Positions 26,001-51,571 of a stretch of DNA of 64,000 bases are shown in pieces; positions within the stretch are counted from its first letter, which is position 1; each line of letters begins with the position of its first letter. Origin of the DNA: Planctomycetes bacterium syqfu (GTDB lineage Bacteria > Planctomycetota > Phycisphaerae > Phycisphaerales > Phycisphaeraceae); contig CP087563.1 of the NCBI GenBank assembly GCA_020974905.1, positions 3,348,001 through 3,412,000 of the forward strand, written 5' to 3'. The position numbers and the translations under genes are program-made. A model generated the notes under the pieces. That model made no database searches. It saw only the letters and a list, made by a program, of their open reading frames with translations, and was not told where the DNA came from.

Positions 26001-26651
26001 CTCAGCCTCGACTGCCACCTTGGCCAACGCAGTTTGGTCGGTCAGTTTCTCCATAGCAGCGCGGCGGATATCCCTATCCTTGTCTTCGACCGCCACCTTG
26101 GCCAACACAGTTTGGTCGGTCAACTTCTCCACAGCAGCAAGGCGGACATCATCATCCTCAGCCTCGACTGCCACCTTGGCCAACGCAGTTTGGTCGGTCA
26201 GTTTCTCCATAGCAGCAAGGCGGACATCATCATCCTCAGCCTCGACTGCCACCTTGGCCAACGCAGTTTGGTCGGTCAGTTTCTCCATAGCAGCAAGGCG
26301 GACATCATCATCCTCAGCCTCGACTGCCACCTTGGCCAACGCAGTTTGGTCGGTCAGTTTCACCATAGCAGCAAGGCGGACATCATCATCCTCAGCCTCG
26401 ACTGCCACCTTGGCCAACGCAGTTTGGTTGGTCAGCTTTTCTATAGCGGCGCAGCGGACGTCCGGATCGCTGTCATTTACCGCGACAAGGCCCAACGCCA
26501 CCGCGTCGTTTACGTTGGCTAGTGCTCGATAGCGTTCGAATGCCATGAAGCTATCCAAACGGGGAGCCAGTACGATTTGCATGGCCCACGAACCCAGTAT
26601 CATGACGATCGTTGCAGCTACGATTATTTTCCAAGTAAAAAATCGTCTCAT
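23070..26651 (-). CDS. Giant HEAT-repeat membrane-anchored protein
   Basis: 1193 residues. An N-terminal membrane anchor (IIVAATIVMILGSWAMQIVL) is followed from residue 73 by about 30 near-identical 26-residue units starting LTDQTALAKVAVE and ending VRLAAVEK. Three of them carry a 5-residue insertion (for example ALARAKVKLVN). About 300 residues of more diverged HEAT units follow. It ends with a 60-residue module (YGSKQLAEDYLNCG, then RVWAHKRGYNV, ending GSGSHRASWGSGR). HEAT arrays form flexible protein-binding solenoids, here probably facing the periplasm. The unit period of 78 bp makes a copy-number-variable DNA tract. Confidence 0.82.
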   Translation of the reverse strand: MRRFFTWKIIVAATIVMILGSWAMQIVLAPRLDSFMAFERYRALANVNDAVALGLVAVNDSDPDVRCAAIEKLTNQTALAKVAVEAEDDDVRLAAMVKLTDQTALAKVAVEAEDDDVRLAAMEKLTDQTALAKVAVEAEDDDVRLAAMEKLTDQTALAKVAVEAEDDDVRLAAVEKLTDQTVLAKVAVEDKDRDIRRAAMEKLTDQTALAKVAVEAEDDDVRLAAVEKLTDQTVLAKVAVEAKAMDIRLTAVEKLTDQTALAKVAVEAEDDDIRLAAVEKLTDQTVLAKVAVEDKDRDIRRAAVEKLTDQTALAKVVIEDKDKDVRLAAVEKLTDQTALAKVAVEDKDDDVRLAAVEKLTDQTALAKVAIEDKDWHVRRAAVEKLTDQTALAKVAVEDKFNDVRLAAVEKLTDQTVLAKVAVEDKDDDVRLAAVVKLTDQIALAKVAVEDKNRYIRALARAKVKLVSITDQTALAKVAVEAKDDDVRLAAVEKLTDQTALAKVAIEAKDRHVRALARAKIKLVNITDQTALAKVAVEAEDDDVRLAAVEKLADQTVLAKVAVVDKDWHVRLAAVEKLTDPTALAKVAIEDKGWNIRSAAVKKLTDQTALAKVVIEDKDKDVRLAAVEKLTDQTVLAKVAVVDKDWHVRLAAVEKLTDQTVLAKVVVVDKDWHVRLAAVEKLTDQIALAKVAVEAKDRHVRALARAKVKLVNITDQTVLAKVAVEAEDDDVRLAAVEKLTDQTALAKVAIEDKGWNIRSAAVKKLTDQTALAKVVIEDKDKDVRLAAVEKLTDQTVLAKVAVEDKDDDVRLAAVEKLTDQTVLAKVAVEAEDDDVRLAAVEKLTDRAALVKVKVAIEGNDPTVRAIALLGFSNAHLMLELARNEPNLTVRTTAILLLTDQQALKQLALEDPMAIVREAAVVGLDDDALLLRRAREDSSATVRLATVRGLTHPDSILAASRAYYAAVRQAARKRLEAQNDEHRLKLADAIQSEIEQKTQVVANADTFSLAETAIHGEFDTVSHAAVLRLADQDGLKRVVLQSTDREIVRIALGKLTDTDMLANIADNQEIDPAVSLAARRRTGKVAWNDIFRVAEGNPKMLGDAVAAVSMFENVQEDAKAAVESACLTMIRRGDESRIPEMVDLLEGYGSKQLAEDYLNCGQPDLDNAGRVWAHKRGYNVGKGSGSHRASWGSGR
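24050..26435. repeat. Tandem 78-bp repeat tract within the HEAT gene
   Basis: About 30 units of 78 bp encode the 26-residue HEAT units; three are extended by 15 bp. Many units are almost identical at the DNA level, with block-wise shared variants, suggesting recent unequal exchange. The tract also produces a long open frame on the opposite strand, which is an artefact of the periodicity. Confidence 0.85.
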
Positions 26652-29613: not shown

Positions 29614-30777
29614 TCATGGATCAACCACCGAGGCATTTTCCTGTCGATCGATTTGGTTATCATTCTGTTTGGCTGGTTTAACAAATTGAGTCTCAGTCGG
29701 AATTACCTTGGCATGATTCTGCTTGATGTCCGCCAAATCATTTTTAACAGAAACCAACTGTTCTTTTAATTGTTTAACTTGTACATCAAGAGATGTGAAT
29801 AATGTTGTGCTGGGGAGTTTATCAATACGGCTTTTGATATCAACAATCGAATCTGTGATTTTTTTTGAAATGTTTGAATTGCTGCTATCGATCTGTTTTT
29901 CAAGATGGCTTTCGAGTGATTTTAACGACTCGGTCAATTGAGATACTGTCATTGCATTGCGAGATATGTTTGTCTGGTTTTTCACATCTCTTTCTTTTGC
30001 ATTCATGGCAATTGACGTTTGCTCAGTTTGAAGAATATTGACTGCATCATGAAGTTCACCTAGTAAATCTTCCAGATTCTGAGTTTGTTTAGCCTGCTGT
30101 ATGCTGACAATCATCGTGTCATCAAGAATATTTTTAATTTTTACCATACCAGTTTGAATTGTGGTGATGTTCTGATCTGTTTTTGCCAACTGTGTGTGAA
30201 TTTCATCCAGCTTCTGAGTCTGTAATGTTGTGATGTTTTTTGTTGTATTCGAAAATTGAGTCAGTAACCTTTCATGAGCCAACAACGTATCTGAAAGGCG
30301 CGATTCTGCTGCTGTTATACGTGCGTCAAGATCATAAGCGAGTTTGGCATCTGCTTCGCGTGTTGTGATGAGCTCGTTTTTTAACAAAAATGCATAAGCA
30401 ATCAGTATGAGCACTATGCAAAAAGCAGCACAGGCTAAAAAAATTCTTTTTAATCGCCAAAGTGGTGCTCTTTCACGCCGTAACCTGTGCAATCCCTGTT
30501 GGGCTGCGACATTTCCAGGATCCAGTTTCAGAATGCGAGTCCATGCTGCTTCTGAATCCAGATATCGACCTTGTTGAGCAAAAATGCGAGCTTGTAAATC
30601 CAGAGCCTCGACGGTCGAACACTGCCGAGTTTGAACAGCGGCTTCCAGGCATTTAAGAGCGGCAGTAAATTGTCGTTTCCTTGCATTCTCTACAGATTCG
30701 GCAAAATAGGAAGAAAAATCCGAACTATCCTGAGCGTCATTGCAACTGTTATTGATATCTGTCAAACTGGATTCCAT
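29614..30777 (-). CDS. TPR plus coiled-coil inner-membrane protein
   Basis: 387 residues from ATG 30777, which has AGGAAG six bases upstream; ATG 30822 gives 15 more residues but no ribosome site. Residues 25-95 are TPR-like helices (AALKCLEAAVQTR, YLDSEAAWTRILKLDPGN). Residues 112-132 form one membrane helix (IFLACAAFCIVLILIAYAFL). The rest is a long periplasmic-type coiled coil with repeated Q/T-rich heptads (TKNITTLQTQKLDEIHTQLA). The TPR end faces the cytosol and could dock the Hsp70. It lies about 50 bases after the Hsp70 stop. Confidence 0.75.
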   Translation of the reverse strand: MESSLTDINNSCNDAQDSSDFSSYFAESVENARKRQFTAALKCLEAAVQTRQCSTVEALDLQARIFAQQGRYLDSEAAWTRILKLDPGNVAAQQGLHRLRRERAPLWRLKRIFLACAAFCIVLILIAYAFLLKNELITTREADAKLAYDLDARITAAESRLSDTLLAHERLLTQFSNTTKNITTLQTQKLDEIHTQLAKTDQNITTIQTGMVKIKNILDDTMIVSIQQAKQTQNLEDLLGELHDAVNILQTEQTSIAMNAKERDVKNQTNISRNAMTVSQLTESLKSLESHLEKQIDSSNSNISKKITDSIVDIKSRIDKLPSTTLFTSLDVQVKQLKEQLVSVKNDLADIKQNHAKVIPTETQFVKPAKQNDNQIDRQENASVVDP

Positions 30778-30825
30778 CACAATCTTCCTGTCAATTGATG
30801 CCATTTTTACAATTAGCGACACATA

Positions 30826-33345
30826 TTATCTGTATGCTTGTACATCACTCTTCTTTTCTTCATCACCGCCTTTATCATGAAGCAAACAAACTAATTGCCA
30901 AACAGTCGGTCTCAAAGCTTCCTTATCACCATTTTGCTGAGCGCGATGGACCTGAGCGATCAATTGATCTGCACGGTTTTCGTCCTTGAATTGGCCACGA
31001 TAATTTTTATCCAAGTCATTCAAAGCTCCAGAAAGCCATCCCATGTTTCCGTACCTTGCGTCATGATCAATCTGGTATAACTGATTTATGATTGCTGTTA
31101 ACAGCATCGCGTCGTTTGTACTTTTGGCACGTGATAGTTCATCTTCAACCATATCGAGGCGTCGTCGATCATCGCTTGCCCCCCAATTTCTCACTGAATC
31201 ACGAGCTTCTAAGAGTGCTTTATCTGCTTCCTTGAGCTTTCGGGGCCAACTCAAGGCTGTATCAAGATCGTCCATTTGTGTAGCCAATTGAAGCAGCTTT
31301 CGGTCGAGATTGGTGCGGCTCTCGGGATCTTCTTTAATCAGGCTTACGAGACGGCTACACTCAGGTACGATCGCTTCAGTATCGATGCGAGTAAGAACAT
31401 TGCGAGCTTCCGGACATTCAACCGCTTCGGATCTGGCCAAAGAAAGCTCCTTCTTAAGCGTATCGAATCGCTCAATCAGAATCTCCGGGTCGTCATGTAT
31501 CATCTGTATGTCCACATCTAATTCACGCATGAGACCAATCTGCTTAAATTCCGCTTCCATACGGACCTGTTGCGACTCGTCCATGTGAACTCGTATCTCG
31601 ACATCAGCGCCTTCTGGCAGATCCCGAGTGAGTTCCTCCCCAGTGATAATCATGGTTCCAATCAGATGATTGCGATCTGCTCGTATACTTTCACCTTCAC
31701 GTAATGGGATTCGAATGGCATCATTTGACCCCGCACGCAGAGACTTATTCGTACGGACGTCGAATGTATTTTCCATTGGAAGCGTATCACTTCTGCAAAT
31801 GAAGCCCAACATTGTCTCATCACTCTGTTCGATACCAATGGAGTGCGGAGCAATGATGGCACGATCACCGATTTGCATACCATATGTATAGTCACACACA
31901 GGGGTATCAACGGAAAGTGGTGATCCGGTTGGATCACAGAGTTCGAGTCGGTACTCGCAGCGGCGTCCTTCCTCGGCAAAGAGTTCTGTACTGAAGAAAC
32001 CACTTTGATCGAGTTTGATTTTGCCGGAACGCCAGGCGGACACAGAATCGATGAACTCAAGTGTATTACCTTCGGTTGAGTGACTGTAATTTTTGGGGGG
32101 TTGAACAGTGCCGGATATCAGAGGATGAAGATCGCGGCCGGTATTTTCGTAATCCAAACTGACGCGCCAAATTTCGCTTTCCCCAGAATCCCCCACACCC
32201 CCTTTTTTTTTCAGTGTGCTGGCCTGGATTGCTGCTCCCTGGGCAACAACCGTTACAGGATCAATACTGAACTCCAATGGTGCCTTAAGTTCTTCAGCCA
32301 CCTGTTCTCTCACCCAAGGATTGAGCGTACTACCACCCACCATAATGATCTTTGTCATGTCTTTGCCAGCCAATCCTTTTTCCGAGAGTGTTTGTTGGCA
32401 AAGACGAATTGACTTGAGAATGTAGGGTTCACAGACTTTTTTGATGTGTTCCGGAGTTAATTGAAATTCGAAATCCACTTTTTTGCCATCAGAAGTTTGA
32501 TAGAGATTCTCGATATAGATTTCAGCTGGTTTCTGTGTCCGGCAGACTTCAATCTTGGCAAGTTCAGTATAAAATTTGAGCTTGAGCATCGTACCCTTCC
32601 AGATAACTGAATCCACACCCCGTTGGAAATCCACACCCCGTTGGAAGTCACTAAGCCCACCTTGCCGCGCCACTTCAGGCGCGATTACCTCCGTCACGAG
32701 ATCCCAGTCCAGGTGCTTGCCGCCGAGGTTGTTGTCACCAGCATGGTTGTAGACGTTGATCTGCCCATGGCGAATCTGCATGATCGCGGCATCGAAAGTT
32801 CCTCCTCCAAAATCATACACCATCCAGTATTCATTCTTGGCCTGCGACTGAAACCCATACGCCAAAGAAGCAGCGACAGGTTCGAGCATCAACGGGGCGT
32901 AACTGAATCCCGCCAGTTCCGCAGCCTTTTGGGTGGCCTTGGATTGGGGCAGTTCGAAGTTAGCTGGCACCGTGATGAGCACCTCATTGATGTCCTCTCC
33001 GGTCTCCGTCCGTATGTCTCGTTTAAGTTCTTTGAGTACCTCCGCTGACAATTCCTCGGGCCGCATGGCCCGGCCACTGCGAAGGAACTGTTTGGCCCCA
33101 TCCTGCCCCATCCCCATACGCAGCTTGAATTCCACATCCGCGTTGGCTTCTTCATCCTTTTCGAATGCCCGTTCTTTTGGTAACTGTCCCACGCGAATCT
33201 GGTCGCGTTTGTCCATCCAGACTGCTGATGGCGTCACGGATGACCGCAACTGGTTGAGGATCACTTTGGCTTTGACGCCGTCGATCACTGCCGCTGTGCT
33301 GTTAGTCGTTCCCAAGTCAATACCGAAATCAATGGTCGTTCTCAT
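30826..33345 (-). CDS. Hsp70-family chaperone with extended C-terminus
   Basis: 839 residues, versus about 640 for DnaK. The ATPase domain is intact: GIDLGTTNS at residue 8, VPANF and YDFGGGTFD in the middle, MVGGSTLNPWV before residue 370. The substrate-binding part is diverged, and the C-terminal 250 residues are helical and end without a DnaK-type acidic tail (EEKKSDVQAYR). A perfect 18-bp tandem duplication repeats DFQRGV in the ATPase domain. It lies six bases after the GrpE-like gene, a co-transcribed chaperone pair. A dedicated Hsp70 rather than the housekeeping one. Confidence 0.88.
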   Translation of the reverse strand: MRTTIDFGIDLGTTNSTAAVIDGVKAKVILNQLRSSVTPSAVWMDKRDQIRVGQLPKERAFEKDEEANADVEFKLRMGMGQDGAKQFLRSGRAMRPEELSAEVLKELKRDIRTETGEDINEVLITVPANFELPQSKATQKAAELAGFSYAPLMLEPVAASLAYGFQSQAKNEYWMVYDFGGGTFDAAIMQIRHGQINVYNHAGDNNLGGKHLDWDLVTEVIAPEVARQGGLSDFQRGVDFQRGVDSVIWKGTMLKLKFYTELAKIEVCRTQKPAEIYIENLYQTSDGKKVDFEFQLTPEHIKKVCEPYILKSIRLCQQTLSEKGLAGKDMTKIIMVGGSTLNPWVREQVAEELKAPLEFSIDPVTVVAQGAAIQASTLKKKGGVGDSGESEIWRVSLDYENTGRDLHPLISGTVQPPKNYSHSTEGNTLEFIDSVSAWRSGKIKLDQSGFFSTELFAEEGRRCEYRLELCDPTGSPLSVDTPVCDYTYGMQIGDRAIIAPHSIGIEQSDETMLGFICRSDTLPMENTFDVRTNKSLRAGSNDAIRIPLREGESIRADRNHLIGTMIITGEELTRDLPEGADVEIRVHMDESQQVRMEAEFKQIGLMRELDVDIQMIHDDPEILIERFDTLKKELSLARSEAVECPEARNVLTRIDTEAIVPECSRLVSLIKEDPESRTNLDRKLLQLATQMDDLDTALSWPRKLKEADKALLEARDSVRNWGASDDRRRLDMVEDELSRAKSTNDAMLLTAIINQLYQIDHDARYGNMGWLSGALNDLDKNYRGQFKDENRADQLIAQVHRAQQNGDKEALRPTVWQLVCLLHDKGGDEEKKSDVQAYR

Positions 33346-33351
33346 TTTGAA

Positions 33352-34158
33352 TTAATCCTTCTGATTTTCTTGATTTTCATTTTCTTTGCACGGATCACAT
33401 TCGCAGGCATCCTGCTGATCATTGTCTGCGTTTGAAGTTGAATGAGGTTGGTTGGTAACGTTGGAAGGCATCGTTTTCGGAGTAGATGTTTTCTGAGTTG
33501 TTGATGAATCAAACTCATCGGATGTTAACGGTGCTTCGCCTGATGGCGAACTGCTTGTGTGAACTGGAATAGTTTCTGCTGGCACATCATCTGAACTTGA
33601 CGATTCGTCAGCAGACATCGGGGTGGCTACCCAGACTTCCCCCACCTGGATGTGCTGTCCCTTGAAACGGATGGTTGGGTACACTGTTTCGGTTATAATT
33701 TCCACGGTTGTTTCGGGTGTCGGTTGAAGATGAACTTTCAGATGCATGCCATCGACAAACCGCTGACCGGTGAGATCGATGATTTCCATACCCGCCTGCT
33801 TGAGTTTGGCAAGACCACGCTGGGCTCGGCGGTGTGCCACCTTATGCTTCATGTCGATCTGGCTGCCAGCTTCGGGGCGTATTTTTTGCTCAATATCCCA
33901 AAGGCAGGTTCCCACCTCAGCCAAGACGCCTAATAGCTCTTTACCCAGGGCCGTTGCGTCGTCAGATTGTGGAGGTTTTTTCGGATCGACTTCCGGCTCT
34001 TGAGGCTTTGGCATCTTCTCCTGGGACACGATACGAAACTCTGAACACTCGAGCATTTGCATGAGGTCGGGAACAAGGTTTGCCAGTTTCTTACCAATGC
34101 GTTGACGATTACGCGTCTCTTGGCTTTTCTTCTTGGTTTTGGGTTTCTTTTTTGGCAT
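33352..34158 (-). CDS. GrpE-like nucleotide exchange factor
   Basis: 268 residues from ATG 34158. The basic N-terminus MPKKKPKTKKKSQE is followed by a helical dimer-like region, then a compact domain (QRFVDGMHLKVHL, then IRFKGQHIQVGEVWVATP). The last segment resembles the GrpE beta-domain, where PxxxxKGxxxxxGEVxV recurs. The C-terminal 90 residues are Ser/Thr-rich, ending in a cysteine pair (CECDPCKEN). Position directly before the Hsp70 gene supports the role: it would speed ADP release from that Hsp70. Confidence 0.72.
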   Translation of the reverse strand: MPKKKPKTKKKSQETRNRQRIGKKLANLVPDLMQMLECSEFRIVSQEKMPKPQEPEVDPKKPPQSDDATALGKELLGVLAEVGTCLWDIEQKIRPEAGSQIDMKHKVAHRRAQRGLAKLKQAGMEIIDLTGQRFVDGMHLKVHLQPTPETTVEIITETVYPTIRFKGQHIQVGEVWVATPMSADESSSSDDVPAETIPVHTSSSPSGEAPLTSDEFDSSTTQKTSTPKTMPSNVTNQPHSTSNADNDQQDACECDPCKENENQENQKD

Positions 34159-34324
34159 ACTCAACGTCTTTCCAGAATGAAATATCATTGTTGTTCGAAT
34201 GCTTATCCGTTCGTTCCACACTTACTACTGGATAGTAAGGAAAAGGTTGCGCCGACAATTCACTACTTTTAGACCAATAGGTAAAAGCCAAAGGGCAAAG
34301 GGAAAAAGGACAAAGAGAAAAGTG

Positions 34325-36109
34325 TTAATCGGAAGGTCCAGGACCGAGAGAAACGGAACACGACACACGAAACCCGATGATGTAGCTCGAGCTCGGAGGA
34401 TTGATCCAGAGGCGGACGGCCGAGCGGCAGAAGCCAGGATTGATGTCCCACGAACCCCCGCGGCAAACCCGGGCGCTGCCATCTGACGCACCCGTCGGAT
34501 CGGTCACATTACCGCTAGGGTAATCACCATACCAGTCGCTGCACCACTCCCAGACATTCCCGTGCATGTCGTACAAACCCCATGCGTTCGCCGGAAAGCT
34601 GCCAACGGCAACTGTCTTTCCTCGATAGGTGCCCTTGACTCCTGAACCGTATACAAAATTACCATTATAATTCGCCTGATTTGTACTGAGCGTATGGCCA
34701 AAGCTAAACGGAGTTGTCGTACCAGCTCGGCATGCATACTCCCATTGAGCTTCCGTAGGCAAGCGATAAGTCCGGCCATCACGCTGGCTTAACTTCTCAC
34801 AAAAAGCAACCGCATCGCTCCAACTCACCTTCTCAACAGGTAAATTCGAATCACCCTTGAAAACACTCGGATTGTTGCCCATAACAGATTGCCACTGGCT
34901 TTGAGTCACCTCAGTTGTCTGCATCAAAAAAGGCTGGCTGATACGGACACGGTGCTGCGTTTCATCACTCATTCTGTTAGCTTCATTCGACGGACTGCCC
35001 ATCATGAACTCACCAGCTGGAATGTACGTCAGCTTCATCCCGATGCTGTTGATCAGTACCTGACCTACAGTTGTTGGGAATGTTTCTCGCTTCTGGTTTT
35101 GGTGGGATACAGAACTCTTAGGTTTAAATGCCCTTAGTTGCAATGCAGCAAGCGCCTCTTGTGCATGATGTCCTTTCGGGTACTCTTTCAAATATTGATG
35201 CAATGGTTCTACATGTTCATACGCTAACGCCAACACAGCCTTCGCATATGTTCTGTGATCCAATAAACTTTGAACGTCCCATATGTAAGGCCCATACGGA
35301 AATTGTTTCAGATATTGTCTGGCTTCTGCCAAATCTCCATGATTTGATATCCACTGAAATAACGCATTATGTGCTTCTTTGACATGGCGACCTTCGGGGT
35401 AAGACTGAAGGTAACTGTAGAGTTCGCTTGCATCGCCTTGGTCCTTTGCCGACAAAGCCTGATTAAAGTGGCAATCATCAATCAGACTGTGCACAGCTGA
35501 TGCATTTGTGCTATTTGAATATTGATGGATATATTTCTTCGCTGCATACAAACCTTCCGGTTTACCAACCCATTCAATTAACGCAGTGTATGCTTCTTTG
35601 GCATGCTGGCCCGTAAGATGGCTAAACAATTTACTGCCATCTCCATTGTGTAGTGCCGAAAGAGCCTGCTCGAAGCTGTAGTTCTCCAGTAGCTTTGCTC
35701 CTCGTTGCCGCAGAGATTTTCCGCTACTGGATCCCAACGAAGCCAATGTCTCCTCTAGACCTGCAGCGTCCTGAGACTGCAACTGACGTTCACCACGCAC
35801 TAAGGGTAACTGTGCCTTGGCCGGACCATCTCGCGGTACGACTTGCACATAACGTTCAAGTCCCGCCTCGATCACCTTCAGATCAACATTTGAACCATAA
35901 TTTTCCGGTGAAGTGTCGCACAAGCGATTAACAATCGCCTGAGCATGACGACCATCAGGAAAGGCAGACAGGTATTCACCCATAAAGCCAAGATCGTTCT
36001 GCTTGGAGGCACGATACCACGATAACTCCCGTCGCGGCCCTTCGGACAACGCAATATAGGTTGATTCAACACACACAATCAATCCCAATGCAAAGATCAG
36101 CTTCCACAT
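34325..36109 (-). CDS. Membrane-anchored FGE/SUMF1-like protein
   Basis: 594 residues; start 36109 has AGGAGA six bases upstream. Residues 3-20 are a signal anchor (LIFALGLIVCVESTYIAL). Residues 30-330 hold repeated helical units (LYSYLQSYPEGRHVKEAHN, LHQYLKEYPKGHHAQEALA). Residues about 365-590 form the formylglycine-generating-type domain (GMKLTYIPAGEFMMGSPSNE, RLPTEAQWEYACRAG, DMHGNVWEWCSDWYG, RVCRGGSWDIN). In bacteria this fold is often a non-enzymatic binding module next to kinases. Its N-terminal half is a paralogue of the next gene upstream. Confidence 0.85.
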   Translation of the reverse strand: MWKLIFALGLIVCVESTYIALSEGPRRELSWYRASKQNDLGFMGEYLSAFPDGRHAQAIVNRLCDTSPENYGSNVDLKVIEAGLERYVQVVPRDGPAKAQLPLVRGERQLQSQDAAGLEETLASLGSSSGKSLRQRGAKLLENYSFEQALSALHNGDGSKLFSHLTGQHAKEAYTALIEWVGKPEGLYAAKKYIHQYSNSTNASAVHSLIDDCHFNQALSAKDQGDASELYSYLQSYPEGRHVKEAHNALFQWISNHGDLAEARQYLKQFPYGPYIWDVQSLLDHRTYAKAVLALAYEHVEPLHQYLKEYPKGHHAQEALAALQLRAFKPKSSVSHQNQKRETFPTTVGQVLINSIGMKLTYIPAGEFMMGSPSNEANRMSDETQHRVRISQPFLMQTTEVTQSQWQSVMGNNPSVFKGDSNLPVEKVSWSDAVAFCEKLSQRDGRTYRLPTEAQWEYACRAGTTTPFSFGHTLSTNQANYNGNFVYGSGVKGTYRGKTVAVGSFPANAWGLYDMHGNVWEWCSDWYGDYPSGNVTDPTGASDGSARVCRGGSWDINPGFCRSAVRLWINPPSSSYIIGFRVSCSVSLGPGPSD

Positions 36110-36126
36110 GACGTTTCTCCTGGCTA

Positions 36127-39100
36127 TCAAGGCTGCATAGTGCTGAAAATAAACCAACCTAACAGCACCGAAGCCGCAGACAATACACCCACCAAACCAA
36201 CCTTCAATTTGAAGATACGTCGAATAGACGCTGCCTTTGCTTCCAGAGGTTTCAAAGCTTTTTTCGCAGATGCTGCGGCAGATGTCTCTCCAGCAATTGA
36301 AACGACCGACTCGAGGAATTGGACATGTTCTATCAGATTCACCTGACTCCATTGAACTGCGGCATCAAGCGTCAGAAGTGCCTCGACAGCTGCAACACGA
36401 ACTTGGGCTCCATAGGTCTCCATCTGTCCAGTTTGGGCCAATTGCTTTAAGCAATGCTCAAACTCTTTGCATGCATATGCGTGAAGGTCTTGAGGTGGTT
36501 CTGCAATCTGGCTTCGGATGCGTTCACAGAGACGTGTGACTTGATCACGTATCTCCTTAGCTTGGGTAAGCTGTTGACGTGCCTTGGCCTGTGCGCGTTT
36601 CCATTTTTCTTGTAACGTTGGCGGAGCAACTCGCAACTTCAGTGCCTTGGTCGCCTTTTCAAGATGAGGTATCGCAACACCAAGCTTCGTTGCGCCTTGC
36701 TTGCTTTTTTCCAAGTCATTGCTGATCCCCTTATCATTAGGATCAAAGTCGTTTGCAACTACTGCATAAGGAAGTGTTTCCCGAAATGCATGTTTTCTGG
36801 CTTGTTCTGCACAGTTCTGTGCGGCATCCAGTTTTGCGCCACATGTACTGCAAAACATCATTGGGATATCACGGTAGGTGTATCGCACCAAACTAGCTCC
36901 CACCCGATGCCCACAGCCAAAACATTCCTGGTGAGCGTGCCTTCCCATCCGTAACGACTCACGTGCCCTCTCAATGCCATTGATGCGATCGATGATCTCA
37001 TCGTGACTGAGCGACATCAGCTTGTCAAAGGCTGCGTCTAGTAGTACCTGCAGTGCTTTCTCACCTGTGTCTGTTATGGATTTCCATAGGTCGATACCCT
37101 TAAGGCACAAGCAGAGCCCAATGCAGTGATGAACAACAGCCAACATATCCTGCGAAAGGTCATCTCCATGGGTAAGAATGACATCCTCAAGAGCTGGGAT
37201 TGCCTTGTCCCAATTCCGTGCCTCCCTATCAACACGAATATTCTCAAGAGCCTCGAGAATCGAAACGGGAAGATGCCAGTAGCCCTTTTTGCACCAGTCA
37301 AATCCACTGTTTGCGTTCTCTTTAAAATTTTCCCCTACTGAAGTAGCACGTTCTTTGACCACATCCCCCGTGGCAAGTGACGAAATCAGGCTGACTAATT
37401 GCTGTGCTCCCTGCCAGTCTTCTGTCTTCCTGGCAAAGGGAAGAACACAATCAAGCAATGTGTCCGCCGCGAGATCATGTAGTCCTGCGCGTGTTACATT
37501 GTTTTGAGGTAGGAAAGTATCAATGACTGCCAGGTGCTTGGATATTTCTGTATGGAGTCGGCGGATAAGATGACCGGCATGCTGTGGATCGGCCTTGGCC
37601 TGCTGTTCAGCGGTCCTACAGATCCTCTTGATTTCCTGACCGGCGATGTCAGCACCTTTCTCGACTGCCGCATCTTTCTGGTGTTTATCGAACGGTGATT
37701 TGTGAAGCTGAGCGATATACCGTTTGGCTTGCTGCGTCTGATTGCGCTTCAGCGATTCGGCTGCGAGCGTCACGTTGATTTGAAGCAGACAGTTGGGCAG
37801 ATCAGAAATAACGGACCGTACAGCATGATCCGTCAATGTCGGATCATCCAGCTCTTTTGCCCGGTGTCTGAGATACTCCAACATCCCGTCAGTTGAAAGG
37901 GCGATGTGCCAGTAACGTAGAGCTTGATGCCAATCTTCATCTTGACTTTTGGGTAGCTGTTGACTGTCATTGGCTGCATGAAACTCTGCATCTAAGGCAC
38001 GCGTATGATGCCAAATAGCTAGATTGTGTGCAGCTATGCAGTTCTGCCGTTTATGAGCAGCCTTGCCACCTAACTGGCCCTGCCACGTTTGAACCGCCTG
38101 CTTTAACTCAGGTCCACAAAGCATCCGACCATCATGCTCCGGGGTAGGCCAAAACCAGAACAACTCATTGACAAATTGTTCCGTAGGATTTGTCAGAAGC
38201 CGATCCAAGGCCTTCTTACGCTGCTCGACATCAGGTGTTGGGGCCAATGCCAGAGGAAAACCATCCAACTCATTGAGGAGCTGGCCTGCCGCAATGCGAA
38301 TCGCGCGTTGTTTCTCACGATTGCGGACAACGTTGGGCTCAACGTCTACTGCCACGTTCAGGATTCGAAACATATTTGCCCGGTATCTGCCATACCAATC
38401 ACTACACCACTCCTTCACATTCCCATGCATGTCGTACAGGCCCCAGGCATTGGCCTGCTTCTGACCCACAGGATGCGTCTTTTTATCACTGTTTGCATCG
38501 TACCATCCCATATCATCCAAGCGACCCGTTCCTCCATACGTGCCCGTTCTTCCCGCGCGGCATGCGTACTCCCATTCGGCTTCTGTTGGCAAACGATATG
38601 TCAAGCCATCACGTTGGCTTAACTTCTGACAAAATGCAATAGCATCATTCCAACTAACATTTTCTACTGGAAGATTCGCTTCGCCCTTAAAATGGCTCGG
38701 ATTGTTTCCCATGACAGCTTCCCACTGCTCCTGCGTTACCTCTGTCGTCTGCATCAAAAACGCATGGCTGAGCCGAACTTGGCATTGAGACTCCATATCA
38801 TTATCATGCCCAAATTCATTTGACGGGCTACCCATTTTAAAATTGCCAGAAGGAATATAAGTAAATTTCATCTCGAAGCTATTGATGAGTACCTGCCCCA
38901 CATCCGTGGGAAGCAATTCACGCTTCAGCTTCCGATAAAGTGCCAAACCGTCCTGCTGCCCTGGGTTTAACTTCAACATTGTGGCCAGTGGATTTAACGC
39001 TTTAATTTTCACATGATGATCGCGTTTCGGCTGGGATTGCGAAAACAGAATGGCCGACATTAGATCACAACAATCCTTGATGTGACGGCCATTCGGGTAG

Positions 39101-39597
39101 GATTTGAGGTAATTAAAGAGCTTGCTATGGTCCCCTGTGTTCATTGCCAATAGGGATTGATCATAGCGATAGTCCTCAAGCAGGTTTGCCCCTCGCTGCC
39201 GAAGGGATTGGCTACTAGATCCCAGTGAAGCTAAAGTCTCCTCTAGACCGGCTGCATCTTTGGACTGCAACTGACGTTCACCACGCACCAGCAATAACTG
39301 CGTCTTGGCCAAACCATCTTTCGATACGACTTGCACATATCGCTCAAGCCCCGTCTCAATCAAGTTCAGATCAACATGTGAACCATAATTTTCTGGTAAA
39401 GTGCCACACAAGCGATGCACAATCGTCTGTGTATGACGACCTCTTGGATAGGCAGACAGGTATTTACCCATGAAATCAAGGTCGTTCTGCTTGGATGCAC
39501 GATACCACGACAACTCTCGGCGTGGACCTTCAGACAATGCAATGTAGGCCGTTTCCATACACACCAACAAGCCCAAAGCAACGACCAGTTTCCACAT
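36127..39597 (-). CDS. Chimera: truncated FGE-like domain fused to zinc-ribbon co-chaperone protein
   Basis: 1156 residues. Residues 1-403 are paralogous to the next gene: same signal anchor, then an FGE-like domain up to GNVKEWCSDWYG. The domain then breaks off before its RVxRGGSW end. From M409 (38373) a different protein begins: MFRILNVAVDVEPNVVRNRE, ending FVNELFWFWPTPE, a start I associate with Hsp70-linked co-chaperone proteins. Long helical repeats follow, a four-cysteine zinc ribbon near residues 887-925 (ECFGCG, then MMFCSTCG) and a C-terminal membrane helix (KVGLVGVLSAASVLLGWFIF). Likely a gene fusion caused by recombination. Confidence 0.75.
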   Translation of the reverse strand: MWKLVVALGLLVCMETAYIALSEGPRRELSWYRASKQNDLDFMGKYLSAYPRGRHTQTIVHRLCGTLPENYGSHVDLNLIETGLERYVQVVSKDGLAKTQLLLVRGERQLQSKDAAGLEETLASLGSSSQSLRQRGANLLEDYRYDQSLLAMNTGDHSKLFNYLKSYPNGRHIKDCCDLMSAILFSQSQPKRDHHVKIKALNPLATMLKLNPGQQDGLALYRKLKRELLPTDVGQVLINSFEMKFTYIPSGNFKMGSPSNEFGHDNDMESQCQVRLSHAFLMQTTEVTQEQWEAVMGNNPSHFKGEANLPVENVSWNDAIAFCQKLSQRDGLTYRLPTEAEWEYACRAGRTGTYGGTGRLDDMGWYDANSDKKTHPVGQKQANAWGLYDMHGNVKEWCSDWYGRYRANMFRILNVAVDVEPNVVRNREKQRAIRIAAGQLLNELDGFPLALAPTPDVEQRKKALDRLLTNPTEQFVNELFWFWPTPEHDGRMLCGPELKQAVQTWQGQLGGKAAHKRQNCIAAHNLAIWHHTRALDAEFHAANDSQQLPKSQDEDWHQALRYWHIALSTDGMLEYLRHRAKELDDPTLTDHAVRSVISDLPNCLLQINVTLAAESLKRNQTQQAKRYIAQLHKSPFDKHQKDAAVEKGADIAGQEIKRICRTAEQQAKADPQHAGHLIRRLHTEISKHLAVIDTFLPQNNVTRAGLHDLAADTLLDCVLPFARKTEDWQGAQQLVSLISSLATGDVVKERATSVGENFKENANSGFDWCKKGYWHLPVSILEALENIRVDREARNWDKAIPALEDVILTHGDDLSQDMLAVVHHCIGLCLCLKGIDLWKSITDTGEKALQVLLDAAFDKLMSLSHDEIIDRINGIERARESLRMGRHAHQECFGCGHRVGASLVRYTYRDIPMMFCSTCGAKLDAAQNCAEQARKHAFRETLPYAVVANDFDPNDKGISNDLEKSKQGATKLGVAIPHLEKATKALKLRVAPPTLQEKWKRAQAKARQQLTQAKEIRDQVTRLCERIRSQIAEPPQDLHAYACKEFEHCLKQLAQTGQMETYGAQVRVAAVEALLTLDAAVQWSQVNLIEHVQFLESVVSIAGETSAAASAKKALKPLEAKAASIRRIFKLKVGLVGVLSAASVLLGWFIFSTMQP

Positions 39598-39618
39598 GGC
39601 AAAAGCCCCGCTTTCATT

Positions 39619-40845
39619 CTACAAAGTAGAACTTAGGTGGTCACCACCAGCAACTGATGGCGGGATTTGGACGCCCCCATAACTGATTCCGCGGCGCCAC
39701 CAGTGCAGTTGTGACTCAAATGCCCCACGCAATGACGGATCCTTACTGATAGCTTCCTCAAGAAGATCAGCAGCAGTCGAGAGGCCTGCCTGTGACTGGG
39801 CCTGCTTCAAAGCCTGAGTCAAAGCCACTTTCGCTTCGGCCTTAAAATCATGCGGTGATATGGCAGGAACAACAGTCTTAGGTCTGTTTGTGGAACTGCT
39901 TTTGCTCAACATGAACCTGTCGCCATCTGGGCTGGGAACCCAACGATCCAGATCCGTCAAAAGTTCGGTGGCATTGGAATATCGATCTTCCGGACGAGTC
40001 GCTAGACAGCGATGAATGATGGATTCCAGTCCAGGATCCACATTTGAGTTATAGCGGCTGGGTGGGCTGAGGGGCCGCATGAAACGCTCGGGTTTTTCAA
40101 AGTCACGCTCATTCAGGCCCGGAAAAGGCATGCGATCAGTCAACAGTAAGTAGAGGGTTGTCCCAACTGCCCATATGTCGCTGGCTGGTGAATCGTTGCT
40201 CATAGAGAACGCCTCGGGTGCTTTGAAACCAAGAGTGCCACGGCAACTTACAAGAAGCGTCATCGGATTAACGCGTTTGGCCAAACCAAAGTCACTGAGA
40301 CGGGCCTGAATGCCATGTGGCTGGTAGTGAATGAGGATATTGGCTGGTTTGATGTCGCGGTGTACGATTGGCGGTTGCATTTCATGTGCAACAGCCAAAG
40401 CACGGCAAACCTGGCGAATGATATCGACTGCTTCCGTAACGGGCATCAGTTGGACATCAAAAGAACGCCAACGGCGATCAAGGGTTCCGCCAGCGGCGTA
40501 TTCCATCGTAAAATAGCCTGTTAAACCGTGCTTCCCTGGAACAGCATCTGCATCATAAACCCGAACAATATTGGGGTGCTCTAGTTCAGAAAGAGTTCTG
40601 GCTTCATCCAGCCAACCGTGAACTTCTTCGATACTATCAGCCGGAGCTTTAAAGATCTTCATCGCCTGCCCGCGCTTCTCTGGCTTGACGGTCGGACATT
40701 CCATCTCAAACGGATTAGACGGTATCAGGTTGTGCTTGAGTGTACCTTTCTTTTTGCCGAACATGCTGCCGAGCTTGACCATGCGCTTGGCGACAGTAGT
40801 CTGCATCATCAAGCCATTGCCGAAAGCTTGCTTTTCGAGCCACAC
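39619..40845 (-). CDS. Ser/Thr protein kinase (STPK), possibly 5'-interrupted
   Basis: 408 residues from GTG 40845. Catalytic residues are present: K63 in AMKIF, E81, HRD at 162-164 (VHRDIKPANIL), DFG at 185-187 (SDFGLAK), a GTLGFKAPEAF activation segment and SDIWAVG. No glycine-rich GxGxxG loop is recognisable before K63. A TGA lies directly before the GTG in the same frame, and coding-like sequence continues upstream, so the native protein may be longer. The C-terminal 80 residues are helical. First gene of the chaperone cluster; it would phosphorylate cluster proteins or respond to stress. Confidence 0.8.
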   Translation of the reverse strand: MWLEKQAFGNGLMMQTTVAKRMVKLGSMFGKKKGTLKHNLIPSNPFEMECPTVKPEKRGQAMKIFKAPADSIEEVHGWLDEARTLSELEHPNIVRVYDADAVPGKHGLTGYFTMEYAAGGTLDRRWRSFDVQLMPVTEAVDIIRQVCRALAVAHEMQPPIVHRDIKPANILIHYQPHGIQARLSDFGLAKRVNPMTLLVSCRGTLGFKAPEAFSMSNDSPASDIWAVGTTLYLLLTDRMPFPGLNERDFEKPERFMRPLSPPSRYNSNVDPGLESIIHRCLATRPEDRYSNATELLTDLDRWVPSPDGDRFMLSKSSSTNRPKTVVPAISPHDFKAEAKVALTQALKQAQSQAGLSTAADLLEEAISKDPSLRGAFESQLHWWRRGISYGGVQIPPSVAGGDHLSSTL

Positions 40846-41001
40846 TCAAAACGGTGCAACATCCAGACTGGTGATCCTGGTTTGATCGCCCTGCTTTTCA
40901 TCTTCCAGCCATCGGTCAAAATAAGCATAGACTTGGTTAATCAAGTCGATCGTTCCTTGAGCGATATCTGTCCGCATTTCCTTGAACTGATCTCGCCATG
41001 C
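40846..41001 (-). pseudogene. In-frame upstream extension of the kinase gene
   Basis: In the same frame as the kinase, and separated from it only by TGA (40848-40846), the sequence reads [19 protein letters not shown] and YAYFDRWLEDEKQGDQ. A possible ATG at 40977 has AAGGA nearby. This is either the true N-terminus of the kinase interrupted by a nonsense change, or the end of another truncated gene with TGA-GTG coupling. It is cut by LamG-like sequence at about 41000. Confidence 0.5.
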
Positions 41002-41330
41002 TCACCGTCACCCCACCTGCCAACCTCAACGACGGACTCGTTGCCCACCGGACTTTTGACAGTGATCACTATCACACAGCAGTCGACAATACCGGCAATG
41101 GACACGACGGATACATCCATCATGCTGACCACGAAGAAGGATACATTGATCAATCCCTTGAGTTTGATGGCTGGGATGATTATGTCAGCGTTGCCCCGAT
41201 GGACATTCTTGCAGATGATGGTTTACGTACCGATGAACTGACGATTTCAGCCTGGATCAATGCCGATGATTTCGGCACCAGCGATGCACACCTCATCTCC
41301 AAAGCGGATGGCACATCTTCGGATGATCGT
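40998..41330 (+). pseudogene. LamG-domain gene fragment
   Basis: Encodes an N-terminal piece of a concanavalin-like LamG domain: [65 protein letters not shown]. At about 41330 it switches in frame to IS3 transposase sequence, so the domain is truncated. There is no signal peptide at this end. It is a leftover of a secreted or surface gene disrupted by IS activity, pointing away from the kinase gene. Confidence 0.65.
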
Positions 41331-41594
41331 GGCGTGCAATATGCCTGTGGTGATTATCAGCAATTGCTCGATCAACATCAGATCACCTGTAGCATGAGTC
41401 GCAAAGGTAACTGTTTGGACAATGCGGTGACAGAGAGTTTTTGCAACGCTCAAGACGGAGTTGATCCATCGTGAGCATTACACCACCCGTCAGGAAGCAC
41501 GCAATGCGGTGTTCGAATACATCGAAGTGTTTTATGGCTACACAGTTCATTGAACTACCAAACCCCAGAAGCCTACGCAAAAAGTCTCAATTAA
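41331..41594 (+). pseudogene. IS3-family OrfB C-terminal remnant
   Basis: [36 protein letters not shown], then after a frameshift [27 protein letters not shown] and, after a second shift, SLNYQTPEAYAKSLN before TAA at 41592-41594. It is the C-terminal third of an IS3-type transposase with two frameshifts. A TGTCCACCATGCATGGGG stretch at about 41604-41621 may be the element end. It differs in sequence from the IS3 pieces at 15 and 20 kb. Confidence 0.7.
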
Positions 41595-41654
41595 TCCACA
41601 GCAGTGTCCACCATGCATGGGGAAGACCAAATCTTAAATTCGCCAAGCACAACA

Positions 41655-44600
41655 GTTTCAATCCGCGCTCCCGTGTAGGGAGCGACTTGCCTGCCGAGCT
41701 GAAAGGTTGGCAGGGACAAGTTTCAATCCGCGCTCCCGTGTAGGGAGCGACAGTATGGCGGCAATCCCAATACCTATCGTCCAGGGGTTTCAATCCGCGC
41801 TCCCGTGTAGGGAGCGACCATCATGTGCGGGTGTAACATAGACATGTCAAAGTTTCAATCCGCGCTCCCGTGTAGGGAGCGACGACAGGTGGCTGTAGTT
41901 CTACGCGGCAAGATGGGTTTCAATCCGCGCTCCCGTGTAGGGAGCGACGAAGTCCAGACGGAAACGCTGATTTGTCAAGAATGTTTCAATCCGCGCTCCC
42001 GTGTAGGGAGCGACCAGTTACACGGCGTTCAGATGACACGCCGAGAATGTTTCAATCCGCGCTCCCGTGTAGGGAGCGACGTGAGAATGCCAAACCCACA
42101 ACCGCCGAGAAAGTTTCAATCCGCGCTCCCGTGTAGGGAGCGACATATCGGGCGTGAGCCCGGGGACTTGCTGACATTGTTTCAATCCGCGCTCCCGTGT
42201 AGGGAGCGACCAGCAGGAAGGGCGCGATCTGGCGCACCTGGTGTTTCAATCCGCGCTCCCGTGTAGGGAGCGACCTGATGGCATCCTTGGTGATCATGCC
42301 CTTGGTCTGTTTCAATCCGCGCTCCCGTGTAGGGAGCGACATGACGAACGCCCAACACAAACAGGCCCACACCCAGTTTCAATCCGCGCTCCCGTGTAGG
42401 GAGCGACCCAGCAGGCCCAGCCATCCGTAGTCATCTTCCTGTTTCAATCCGCGCTCCCGTGTAGGGAGCGACCAAGCAACGCGCCCATTATCTGGTACGC
42501 AAGCGGTTTCAATCCGCGCTCCCGTGTAGGGAGCGACACCCGGGCCATGATGCTGCGGCATTCCTGGCCTTGTTTCAATCCGCGCTCCCGTGTAGGGAGC
42601 GACTTCTGGCCGCAAGACTGCCACCATCACAGTGACAGTTTCAATCCGCGCTCCCGTGTAGGGAGCGACGCCAAATATCAGCTTGCCAAACCGGGCGTCA
42701 ATGTTTCAATCCGCGCTCCCGTGTAGGGAGCGACGATGGCACAGTCACCAGTCTGTGCGTCCACTTTGGTTTCAATCCGCGCTCCCGTGTAGGGAGCGAC
42801 CCTGGACAGCTTGAGCCAGGGCGTTGGTGCCTTGTTTCAATCCGCGCTCCCGTGTAGGGAGCGACCACGGCCACTTCCAGCAAGTCTGACGCAACCGAGT
42901 TTCAATCCGCGCTCCCGTGTAGGGAGCGACGGCTTTAATTGCCCGTTGAATATCCTTTGACGCGTTTCAATCCGCGCTCCCGTGTAGGGAGCGACCAACG
43001 ACTGGGATGATGAGTGCGTTACCACCATTGTTTCAATCCGCGCTCCCGTGTAGGGAGCGACCAAAGGCATGGGCAAAGACGCAGCGTTCATCCTGGTTTC
43101 AATCCGCGCTCCCGTGTAGGGAGCGACGTAGATATCTCGTTTGTTATGTCGAAAGAAATTGTTTCAATCCGCGCTCCCGTGTAGGGAGCGACTCCCACCC
43201 ACCGAACAAAGATTATCGTTTTGCATGTTTCAATCCGCGCTCCCGTGTAGGGAGCGACTACTCCCCGCTACGTCATGGTGGACGGATACCTTGTTTCAAT
43301 CCGCGCTCCCGTGTAGGGAGCGACCCAGTCGGTTCGGTACTTTCGTCGCCGGGTTCTTGTTTCAATCCGCGCTCCCGTGTAGGGAGCGACCAGGCTGCGA
43401 ATGGACGTGTTTGTGCTATCAACGGTTTCAATCCGCGCTCCCGTGTAGGGAGCGACAGCTGGATGCTTGTTTCATCAATGTGCCGGTGATGTTTCAATCC
43501 GCGCTCCCGTGTAGGGAGCGACGCGATGGAAGCGACAATGCCAAGGCCGTGTGCATGTTTCAATCCGCGCTCCCGTGTAGGGAGCGACCAATAACAACAA
43601 AAACGGCTCTGCGAATGTTGGTTTCAATCCGCGCTCCCGTGTAGGGAGCGACGGCCAGTTCTGTAAACGGCAACAATGACGCACAGGTTTCAATCCGCGC
43701 TCCCGTGTAGGGAGCGACGAAACAAGACCTAGCCATTAACCCAATTTGAAAGGTTTCAATCCGCGCTCCCGTGTAGGGAGCGACTGGTCCAGTATGCCGG
43801 TATTCCAGTCTCTTGCGTGTTTCAATCCGCGCTCCCGTGTAGGGAGCGACGTGAAAACCCGTCAAACGATGGATTTCTTCGACAGTTTCAATCCGCGCTC
43901 CCGTGTAGGGAGCGACGTTTATGTTTGTCAAATATATACAACAATCAATGTTTCAATCCGCGCTCCCGTGTAGGGAGCGACCCCGTCACGGTAAAATGCT
44001 TTGGACGAATGAATTGTTTCAATCCGCGCTCCCGTGTAGGGAGCGACACCAAACGCCTTGGCAAAGCGGATCATGCGGTTGTTTCAATCCGCGCTCCCGT
44101 GTAGGGAGCGACGATCATGTCGATGGCTTGTGTGTTTTCCGGGCTGTTTCAATCCGCGCTCCCGTGTAGGGAGCGACGTTTTTCGTTATTGGACTAGACA
44201 TTAATTTTAGAGTTTCAATCCGCGCTCCCGTGTAGGGAGCGACTACGGTGTTCTACGGACAACACCACCGTAAGACAGGTTTCAATCCGCGCTCCCGTGT
44301 AGGGAGCGACGTTTTCAGGCCGGTGGTGTTTTCAGCAGTCATGGTGTTTCAATCCGCGCTCCCGTGTAGGGAGCGACTAGTGTTCTCAATTAAACTACAT
44401 CTTTATACCAATGTTTCAATCCGCGCTCCCGTGTAGGGAGCGACGCACTGCGTCACACCTTTGCTACACGTGCTGTAGTTTCAATCCGCGCTCCCGTGTA
44501 GGGAGCGACCATGGTCAGGTAGTCACAAAAAACCTTAATGGCTGTTTCAATCCGCGCTCCCGTGTAGGGAGCGACGTTTCATTTCTGGAACTCCTTCCAC

Positions 44601-45825
44601 ACCAGGGTGTTTCAATCCGCGCTCCCGTGTAGGGAGCGACAGGTTGGCGTTCGCTACGTTGCCAAGACCTGCAAGTTTCAATCCGCGCTCCCGTGTAGGG
44701 AGCGACCAAGCATGCCTATGACTGCTTAATCGACTCCATGTTTCAATCCGCGCTCCCGTGTAGGGAGCGACGAAGCGTTGACCGCAAAAACCGTTGGCCG
44801 TGGACTTGTTTCAATCCGCGCTCCCGTGTAGGGAGCGACATCGGTCATGGCCGTCATGCTGGTTATGCTGATGTTTCAATCCGCGCTCCCGTGTAGGGAG
44901 CGACACATGTATATGAAGCATTGTTCTGGTTGTGGTGGTTTCAATCCGCGCTCCCGTGTAGGGAGCGACATGTTTTCAGCTGCGTTGACTTGTGCCATTA
45001 TTTGTTTCAATCCGCGCTCCCGTGTAGGGAGCGACCCCATCTCTGCGGTGGTCATGTTGATCGGCAACGTGTTTCAATCCGCGCTCCCGTGTAGGGAGCG
45101 ACTGCCCTTGGCGGTCTGCTCTGCTGTCGTGATGGTGTTTCAATCCGCGCTCCCGTGTAGGGAGCGACCAGTTCGGCTCTTTTCACTCTCACTGACCGAA
45201 GGTTTCAATCCGCGCTCCCGTGTAGGGAGCGACAACGAGGTGGTTGAGATGACGCACGAGCCGCGTGTTTCAATCCGCGCTCCCGTGTAGGGAGCGACAC
45301 CAGAAAATGCAATATCAAATGCATCTGGAGAAGTTTCAATCCGCGCTCCCGTGTAGGGAGCGACTCGCATCCCCACTGATCTGCACCGTGTTTGCTTGTT
45401 TCAATCCGCGCTCCCGTGTAGGGAGCGACGGTCAGTAACGTGGCGCGTGGTAGTGGGATTCATTGTTTCAATCCGCGCTCCCGTGTAGGGAGCGACAGCA
45501 CAATCCATCAACAACAACTTTGCTTCCTGGTTTCAATCCGCGCTCCCGTGTAGGGAGCGACGCCAGTGCCTGGGCCGTTGAACGATGCCAGCCTGTTTCA
45601 ATCCGCGCTCCCGTGTAGGGAGCGACCTGCGTCATCAACATCAACGACCATGCCAGGCTGTTTCAATCCGCGCTCCCGTGTAGGGAGCGACGCACAAGTT
45701 GATTGGATGCTTCTGGCCTGGTAACTGGTTTCAATCCGCGCTCCCGTGTAGGGAGCGACGCAATGTCTTGAAAGTCTTCACCGACAATACCAAGTTTCAA
45801 TCCGCGCTCCCGTGTAGGGAGCGAC
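41655..45825 (-). CRISPR. CRISPR array, type I-C repeats, about 64 repeats / 63 spacers
   Basis: A 32-bp repeat (on + strand GTTTCAATCCGCGCTCCC then GTGTAGGGAGCGAC) recurs every 64-68 bp. By hand count there are 64 copies, first at 41655 and last at 45794, with 63 spacers of 32-36 bp. Read on the minus strand the repeat ends ATTGAAAC, the usual type I-C crRNA orientation; a 7-bp stem CGCTCCC/GGGAGCG with loop GTGTA is the Cas5c cleavage hairpin. Transcription is therefore leftward, with the leader next to cas2. I saw no degenerate repeat at either end. Confidence 0.97.
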
Positions 45826-46030
45826 GCCTTTACTTTAAGTACTGAAAAGCACAGAAGCAAAAGTCAATACATCGCGAACCAGACCGACATAATGGCCCAA
45901 ATGACATAAATTGCTTTCAAGAACAATCTATTCACTTTTCAAAGAGCATGTTAAAACAAACGCGAACCTACCAGGAAAATCATGCGCGCTGGACATTCGC
46001 ATGACTTCACATCAAAACGTGGAAGGTGCA
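45826..46030 (-). promoter_or_regulatory. CRISPR leader region
   Basis: The 205 bp between the last repeat and cas2 are AT-rich and hold no credible gene. Given array orientation and cas position, this is the leader: promoter of the pre-crRNA and the site of new spacer integration. Specific promoter boxes could not be fixed with confidence. Confidence 0.7.
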
Positions 46031-46321: not shown

Positions 46322-46376
46322 GATGCATCCCCATGGTTGATCTACTTATTTCATGTCACAGGCCAATCATGGCACT

Positions 46377-48085: not shown

Positions 48086-48104
48086 CAAGCCCCCTATCCA
48101 GTTT

Positions 48105-51548: not shown

Positions 51549-51571
51549 AGGCCACCTCCTTCGAAAAGTTA

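Follow-up and report, generated by a model that had tools for sequence, protein, structure and literature searches.

What is the role of an Hsp70 that is encoded together with a GrpE-like protein, a J-like protein and a protein kinase, in a bacterium whose own DnaK and GrpE genes lie at other places in the genome? The question is raised by six genes of Planctomycetes bacterium syqfu, a member of the Phycisphaeraceae whose genome is a single contig of 7.38 Mb. The genes lie within a stretch of 64,000 nucleotides (assembly GCA_020974905.1, contig CP087563.1, positions 3,348,001 to 3,412,000), referred to here as the window, and were interpreted in a preliminary description as a dedicated chaperone machine, controlled by phosphorylation and tethered to the membrane, with envelope stress, secretion or defence as possible roles. 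Comparison with related loci identifies the cluster as a copy of a real, conserved and mobile chaperone module with an unusual interface between the Hsp70 and its J-like partner. A conflict or defence function would be plausible for this operon.

A conserved neighbourhood around the Hsp70 gene

The cluster occupies positions 29614-40845 of the window, where six long open reading frames (ORFs) are listed, all on the minus strand. These, together with the debris that lies upstream of the kinase, are as follows.

39619..40845, minus strand: Ser/Thr kinase (K); Pfam Pkinase 3.8e-41
36127..39597, minus strand: FGE/J-like chimera (J); FGE-sulfatase 5.5e-39, a J-like hidden Markov model, and a J-like profile that matches DnaJ J domains
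34325..36352 by the longest ORF, with a start more likely at about 36112, minus strand: second FGE-like protein; FGE-sulfatase 8.2e-49
33352..34221, minus strand: GrpE-like nucleotide exchange factor (E); profile match, hhalign and Foldseek, no Pfam match
30826..33345, minus strand: Hsp70 (H); Pfam HSP70 1.1e-69, best stretch residues 7-403, and alignments
29614..30822, minus strand: membrane protein (T) with TPR, a single transmembrane (TM) segment and a coiled-coil-like part; TPR_2 6.7e-6, hydrophobic segment 129-147
40998..41600, no strand assigned: debris upstream of the kinase, comprising the start of a LamG-like ORF on the plus strand and an integrase fragment of IS3 type (insertion sequence, IS), both recognised by eye from the ORF list and the sequence

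From the kinase to the TPR gene the intergenic gaps are 21, about 14, 103, 6 and 3 bp, and the arrangement first described, with six one-strand genes at short spacing and 6 bp between the GrpE-like and Hsp70 genes, is borne out by the ORF coordinates. Promoter and terminator scans of the cluster gave signals no higher than those of shuffled sequences. A Pfam scan took in nine window proteins, and in the T protein the best TPR match falls just below the curated cut-off (26.3 against 27 bits).

Thirty-two independent loci were examined, designated here by L-numbers, with L014 and L020 representing the same place as L013. Among 14 plasmid records seven were taken in, leaving out H9-H13, H15 and H17. 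Partner genes were found with profiles built in this analysis and some of the loci sat in the training sets; outside these lay the J-like genes of L056, L057, L063, L113, L114, L118, L119, L121 and L123-L125, as well as the GrpE-like genes of L022, L053, L056, L057, L063 and those of the L113-L126 copies that have one. A GrpE-like gene adjoins the Hsp70 gene in 29 of the 32 loci, the exceptions being L058 and L120, which are cut at contig ends, and L125, in which none was found. J-like genes are present in 24/32 loci, a kinase in 13/32 and a kinase-like protein in 8/32, which is fused to AAA+ in seven cases and is cut by a contig end in the eighth. The order kinase, J-like, GrpE-like and Hsp70 recurs in ten loci (the window, L013, L019, L021, L022, L113, L114, L118, L119 and L121), with the variation in the window that the second FGE gene sits between the J-like and GrpE-like genes. 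Downstream of the Hsp70 gene a TPR/TM gene follows in eight of the 32 loci, the window included, and in L014 one gene lies in between.

At least one profiled partner accompanies the Hsp70 gene in each of the 31 other loci, and the same search found no profiled partner at three other Hsp70 loci of the same genome (stretches of 4.8, 15 and 15 kb). The association with partners exceeds chance. The neighbourhood check that had been proposed for the Hsp70 and GrpE-like proteins is therefore positive, and the dedicated chaperone module with a kinase is conserved as a unit in gene order and content; homologues scattered without conserved neighbours are not what the 32 loci present.

Some other genes recur near these clusters. 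A sigma-54 activator beside a PLD-like gene occurs in L113 (13005-16003, the PLD-like gene being recognised by eye), which belongs to a genome of the same order as the source, and in L054 (1-2488), a Vibrio plasmid. Near the kinase of L013 and L113 there is a sigma-factor-like protein, identified by eye and without a Pfam match in L113, together with a conserved protein of 179 residues that is also found in L019 (L013 7642-8936, L113 3405-4763, L019 3169-3567).

The partner proteins and the Hsp70 switch

Homology of the J-like domain to J domains is supported by profile search. With a J-like profile of 13 members, the first 16 matches in the PDB are all J-domain proteins (best E 0.0011), and 20 of the 25 matches at E up to 1 are J proteins, a count that includes mKIAA0962, presumably also a J protein. 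An AlphaFold2 model that spans the window J-like domain and some of the helical region (261 residues, mean predicted local distance difference test score, pLDDT, 83.5) contains helices that read as J-domain-like from the helix list. The HPD motif is absent in 24/24 J-like domains. A protein encoded after another Hsp70 gene of the genome at 5.04 Mb (L017 5170-6456) contains the stretch 'HYTLLGLP', which resembles the start of a J-like domain; the protein was missed by the J profile.

The GrpE-like proteins of the window, L053 and L021 have no match to Pfam PF01025, the window protein being without any Pfam match, and a PDB sequence search with the GrpE-like profile also gave no match. Remote homology to GrpE over the helix and beta domain is nevertheless detected with hhalign, with a score of 37.4 and a probability of only 65% against 12 GrpEs of relatives (L088 was dropped from this set with its motif unmatched, and L092 was left out). 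In the control, 199 of 200 column shuffles score 17.5 or less and the remaining shuffle, at 129.6, aligned two columns only. A Foldseek search with the low-confidence GrpE-like model places GrpEL1 at ranks 1-4 with weak E values of 0.046-0.14.

Motifs of the Hsp70 were counted on 30 unsplit proteins, which excludes the split copies L061 and L063; L058, L120 and L126 run off contig ends. The motifs of the ATPase are kept, with phosphate-1 in 29/30 (the contig end truncates L120 at this point) and both phosphate-2 and the adenosine GG in 30/30. The equivalents of DnaK Arg167 (R167) and Asn170 (N170) are lost in all 30, Glu171 (E171) is kept in all 30, and the DnaK-type interdomain linker motif is found in none of them. 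About 105 extra residues replace the linker region in each of the 30 proteins, where the spacing from VGG to the substrate-binding domain (SBD) is 159-171 residues, as against 58 in the genome's own DnaK. The window Hsp70 has its extra stretch, beta-rich by eye, before the SBD and also a long C terminus, and its score with the DnaK equivalog NCBIfam TIGR02350 is 232.2 bits against a cut-off of 822.55. The residue D481 of DnaK was considered as a third loss and was dropped because the genome's own DnaK carries Asn at that site.

According to the portions drawn on here of a published account (PMC7289447), R167 of DnaK can pair with Asp393 of the linker and with the Asp of HPD. The loss of HPD from the J-like domain and of the arginine from the Hsp70, in every copy examined, suggests that the contact between the two proteins has been rewired, which appears to be the best reading of the losses on both sides. 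The operon resembles the housekeeping DnaK/DnaJ/GrpE system in combining an Hsp70 of intact ATPase motifs with J-like and GrpE-like partners, and is unlike it in these losses and in the extra residues before the SBD, as well as in being sparse and mobile and in having a kinase in many copies.

Distribution, transfer and alteration of the window copy

The Hsp70 family is rare. With the source genome counted in each case, it is present in 4 of 61 close-relative genomes, in 392 genomes of the phylum as three full-length matches and, with a wider profile, in 9/400 genomes of the order and 12/397 of the class. Thirty-six more genomes of the phylum have weak matches alone, which among the matches listed lie in an SBD-like stretch. 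Other copies were found in the genome collection in a 'bacterium' metagenome-assembled genome (MAG), a Methanobrevibacter MAG and Actinocatenispora, and also in plasmids and viral contigs. The carriers are planctomycete-type genomes, an actinomycete, Bacteroidota and Proteobacteria plasmids, viral contigs and the Methanobrevibacter MAG.

In a midpoint-rooted tree, built from the nucleotide-binding domain (NBD) only, the three other Hsp70s of the genome are split off from the 30 members of the family with a support of 100/100. Within the family the same-genus copy L016 groups with the viral contig L056, L115 and L116 group with the Pseudomonas plasmid copy L055, and the Methanobrevibacter copy is nested among otherwise planctomycete-type copies and L019 (96/91), its contig coming from a MAG in which a binning error is possible. 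This shows horizontal transfer of the operon, which links unrelated bacteria with each other and with one archaeal genome bin. Two of the plasmid copies lie in Tn7-like elements. An origin from phage was rejected since the C-terminal half of the window Hsp70 has no match among 50,697 phage records; a planctomycete-type profile likewise has none in the viral contigs.

Prophage-type genes (terminase, portal, capsid/protease and tape measure) occupy positions 7-15279 of the window and end in an integrase fragment, and an ORF at 12546, which has no PHROG match, is related to one that lies close to the L014 cluster. Two otherwise different proteins, encoded at 16950-17990 and 23070-26651, end in the same tail, GxGSHRASWG, the core of which, SHRASW, has no further occurrence in the window in any of the six frames. 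The second of them, 1193 residues long, consists of numerous almost identical repeats, each of about 26 residues and HEAT-like by eye, and its gene belongs to a run of small genes that share its strand.

The window copy is itself an altered one, in which FGE genes have apparently been added and duplicated, one of them has been fused to the J-like protein, and the N-lobe of the kinase is apparently degenerate. The kinase keeps the VAIK-type Lys, HRD, DFG and APE, and has no canonical or recognisable Gly-rich loop, a feature that is present in four aligned relatives. Its first 50 or so residues are unlike those of the relatives, and from residue 60 on it is 58% identical to the L013 kinase. The chimera begins with a hydrophobic segment and a truncated FGE-like domain (together about residues 1-405), which are followed by the J-like domain, a helical part and a C-terminal hydrophobic segment; the two segments are placed at 4-22 and 1128-1146, with a weaker one at 819-837. 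Its FGE domain covers positions 7-204 of the 255 in the Pfam FGE-sulfatase profile, and the J-like domain begins directly behind.

The second FGE-like protein, which also has an N-terminal hydrophobic segment, is 72% identical to the N terminus of the chimera over 177 residues and is hence a paralogue of its FGE part; genome-wide, no other match to the chimera N terminus was found. What is taken to be the usual FGE active-site cysteine pair seems incomplete in this second protein. An FGE gene is present in only one of the 32 loci, the window copy, which rules out the FGE-like proteins as a component of the system, as they had been presented, and restricts the FGE link, as far as sampled, to the window genome. 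The FGE genes are read here as a local gain followed by duplication, with one copy probably fused to the J-like protein. The FGE gene was also considered as a target of a diversity-generating retroelement and set aside, as its end matches FGE paralogues only and no template repeat was found near the reverse transcriptase genes, in a search of the stretches around six such genes (1.5 kb on each side, and 16 kb around one) that leaves a farther template possible. Two reverse transcriptases in the genome are retron-like by eye (L077 11301-12302, 333 residues, and L076 1285-2322, 345 residues), the one in L077 being situated about 11 kb past the right end of the window.

Possible function of the operon

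The membrane tethering that had been proposed is supported: each of the ten loci, of the 32, that were examined for hydrophobic segments has one or more in a protein of the cluster or of its surroundings. The segment is carried by the J-like, T, peptidoglycan (PG)-binding or GrpE-like protein, with L053 having it in the GrpE-like protein and L060 in a divergently oriented neighbour only. Control by phosphorylation has some support from gene content. A kinase is in the cluster, all five FHA candidates in the relatives were confirmed by Pfam with a sixth FHA gene, in L117, added by the profile, a PP2C gene follows the Hsp70 gene in L121 and a metallophosphatase gene is placed at the end of the L021 cluster.

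A possible mechanism would begin with the J-like/helical protein, membrane-tethered in several copies, which may capture a client and recruit its own Hsp70. The Hsp70 would bind and release the client in an ATP cycle that is reset by the GrpE-like protein. Because the J-like domain is without HPD and the Hsp70 without the arginine and the linker, the two would have to engage through another contact, possibly the extra stretch, and this would insulate the module from the housekeeping DnaJ/DnaK/GrpE. The kinase may gate the machine, with FHA readers and phosphatases participating in some relatives, and the TPR/TM protein may link it to the envelope. The sparse distribution, the transfer and the carriage on plasmids and Tn7-like elements suggest a conflict or defence role. 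The reading that is tentatively preferred, as a possibility, is that the window cluster belongs to a chaperone operon family that moves horizontally and whose most likely setting is conflict or defence, where the chaperone would hold or assemble the effector of such a system. The larger proposal is rather unlikely, namely that the operon represents a previously undescribed class of prokaryotic conflict or defence systems, with a self-contained and membrane-tethered Hsp70 machine in which the Hsp70 and its J-like partner would jointly have abandoned the HPD-Arg167-linker switch, and which would be kinase-gated in many copies and have spread between phyla and into an archaeon.

No description of this operon was found among the matches listed in open-access full texts, a scope outside which most subscription papers and preprints fall. 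As far as the consulted portions of the sources go, the nearest described system is the HSP70/GrpE/DnaJ-FNIII theme of the GAP1-N2 GTPase conflict systems, followed by CoCoNuT CnuD. In those portions of Kaur et al. 2020 (PMC7159879), the theme brings HSP70, GrpE and a DnaJ- (DnaJ-FNIII) or TPR-bearing partner into one neighbourhood with membrane-linked parts, features that are shared with the present operon; kinase and PP2C form a separate theme there, whereas in this family the kinase sits inside the Hsp70 operon, and FGS (FGE-type) effectors occur in some of the planctomycete systems. The Pfam matches of the nine window proteins include no GTPase or FNIII family, GAP1 not having been searched by name. 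The CnuD proteins, in the corresponding parts of PMC11090510, are Hsp70-like ATPases of defence-type operons, some with a TerY-P kinase and phosphatase, and differ in belonging to McrBC-type GTPase/nuclease systems and in having degenerate Walker A-like motifs; none of the nine window proteins has an McrBC family among its Pfam matches. That a J protein can take part in phage sensing has a precedent in bNACHT25, which needs host DnaJ (PMC12169576), although it relies on the host's own protein and its abstract names no dedicated Hsp70 operon.

A scan of seven proteins with PADLOC matched no known system other than through the kinase. The window kinase scores against the kinase models, best with mad6 at 1.4e-53, and the other six proteins have no convincing match; with kinase-based defence, as in PD-T4-6, Mokosh MkoA and MADS mad6, only the kinase domain of the cluster is shared. 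Beside the cluster, at 41655-53869 of the window, lie a CRISPR array with 64 mismatch-free repeats and 63 different spacers and the type I-C genes Cas1, Cas4, Cas7, Cas8c, Cas5 and Cas3 (the scan took in no Cas2). Between the spacers and the examined loci there is only one match, of 16 bases. Near other copies there are BREX, Zorya, Gabija with a type IIG restriction-modification (RM) system, Gabija-like, Hma and type I methyltransferase genes. In L053 the annotation of the adjoining BREX stretch names a 5-methylcytosine restriction component, and the L021 cluster is headed by a TIR-like gene with weak PADLOC matches, the best at 3.2e-6.

Several results weigh against the conflict or defence reading or against the features on which it draws. 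By annotation names, two of six Hsp70 plasmid stretches of about 20 kb each hold a named defence system (BREX and Zorya), as do two of six control stretches of 50 kb each from the same plasmids (type III-B CRISPR and type I RM). Two more test stretches are positive by PADLOC alone, which covered some test stretches and no controls, and this small six-plasmid comparison gives no sign that defence genes are enriched. The loci examined revealed no conserved effector, and no PADLOC family of 2023 convincingly matches the J-like or Hsp70 proteins. Neither a kinase nor a kinase-like gene was found beside the Hsp70 gene in 11/32 loci, some of them cut by contig ends; in one of the 11, L122, there is an ORF of kinase type about 3 kb away on the opposite strand, which was excluded from the count. 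A Foldseek search with the J-like model returned no J domain among the best 50 of 174 matches, and the confidence of the GrpE-like model is low (pLDDT 60). The genome's Hsp70b has likewise lost the Arg, with an aligned spacer of 150, and neither it nor Hsp70c contains the strict linker motif, so that single traits do not define the Hsp70 family.

Three rival explanations stand beside this reading. The operon could be an accessory device of envelope proteostasis or secretion, in which a tethered Hsp70 aids folding, insertion or export under kinase control and has no conflict role. The hydrophobic segments at all ten loci would fit, as would the annotation of proteins with a PG-binding domain in the copies from Vibrio, Shewanella and Aeromonas and an OmpA-like C terminus, seen by eye, in the Actinocatenispora T protein; yet the sparse distribution and the transfer are unlike a housekeeping envelope function, and this account is held to be somewhat unlikely. 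In a second alternative, the module would be a helper of the mobile element on which it travels, be it plasmid, transposon or prophage, with a part, for instance, in putting together complexes for replication, transfer or the virion. In favour are the carriage on plasmids, Tn7-like elements and viral contigs, the distance of only about 14 kb between the window cluster and the end of the prophage-type genes, and the L014 relative of the prophage-region ORF, which is about 1.4 kb from the cluster. The carriers are, however, of unrelated kinds, which is a better fit to cargo than to a core function, and, with no match to the C-terminal half of the window Hsp70 in the phage records and none to the planctomycete-type profile in the viral contigs, this explanation is improbable.

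A further alternative concerns the window copy alone, which may be a decaying relic that does not work as a system even if its relatives do. The kinase without its Gly-rich loop and with the N-lobe lost, the J-like protein fused to a truncated FGE domain, and the IS-type debris and CRISPR array that adjoin the operon end would all agree with decay, as would the NBD end branch of the window Hsp70, which at 0.43 is the longest of its group of four, against 0.05-0.16 in the three nearest relatives. Nonetheless, the six frames are all open and long, the Hsp70 motifs are present, and the chimera has a hydrophobic segment at either end, an arrangement that by positive-inside reasoning would agree with a J-like part in the cytosol; a relic is considered unlikely.

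In Hsp70 machines the HPD motif, with its arginine partner, is regarded as the general switch. Both are missing in all copies of the operon examined while the ATPase motifs are kept, and an Hsp70 cycle that proceeds through another J contact thereby becomes testable. Should the conflict or defence reading be true, dedicated Hsp70 machines would join the regulated immune devices of prokaryotes.

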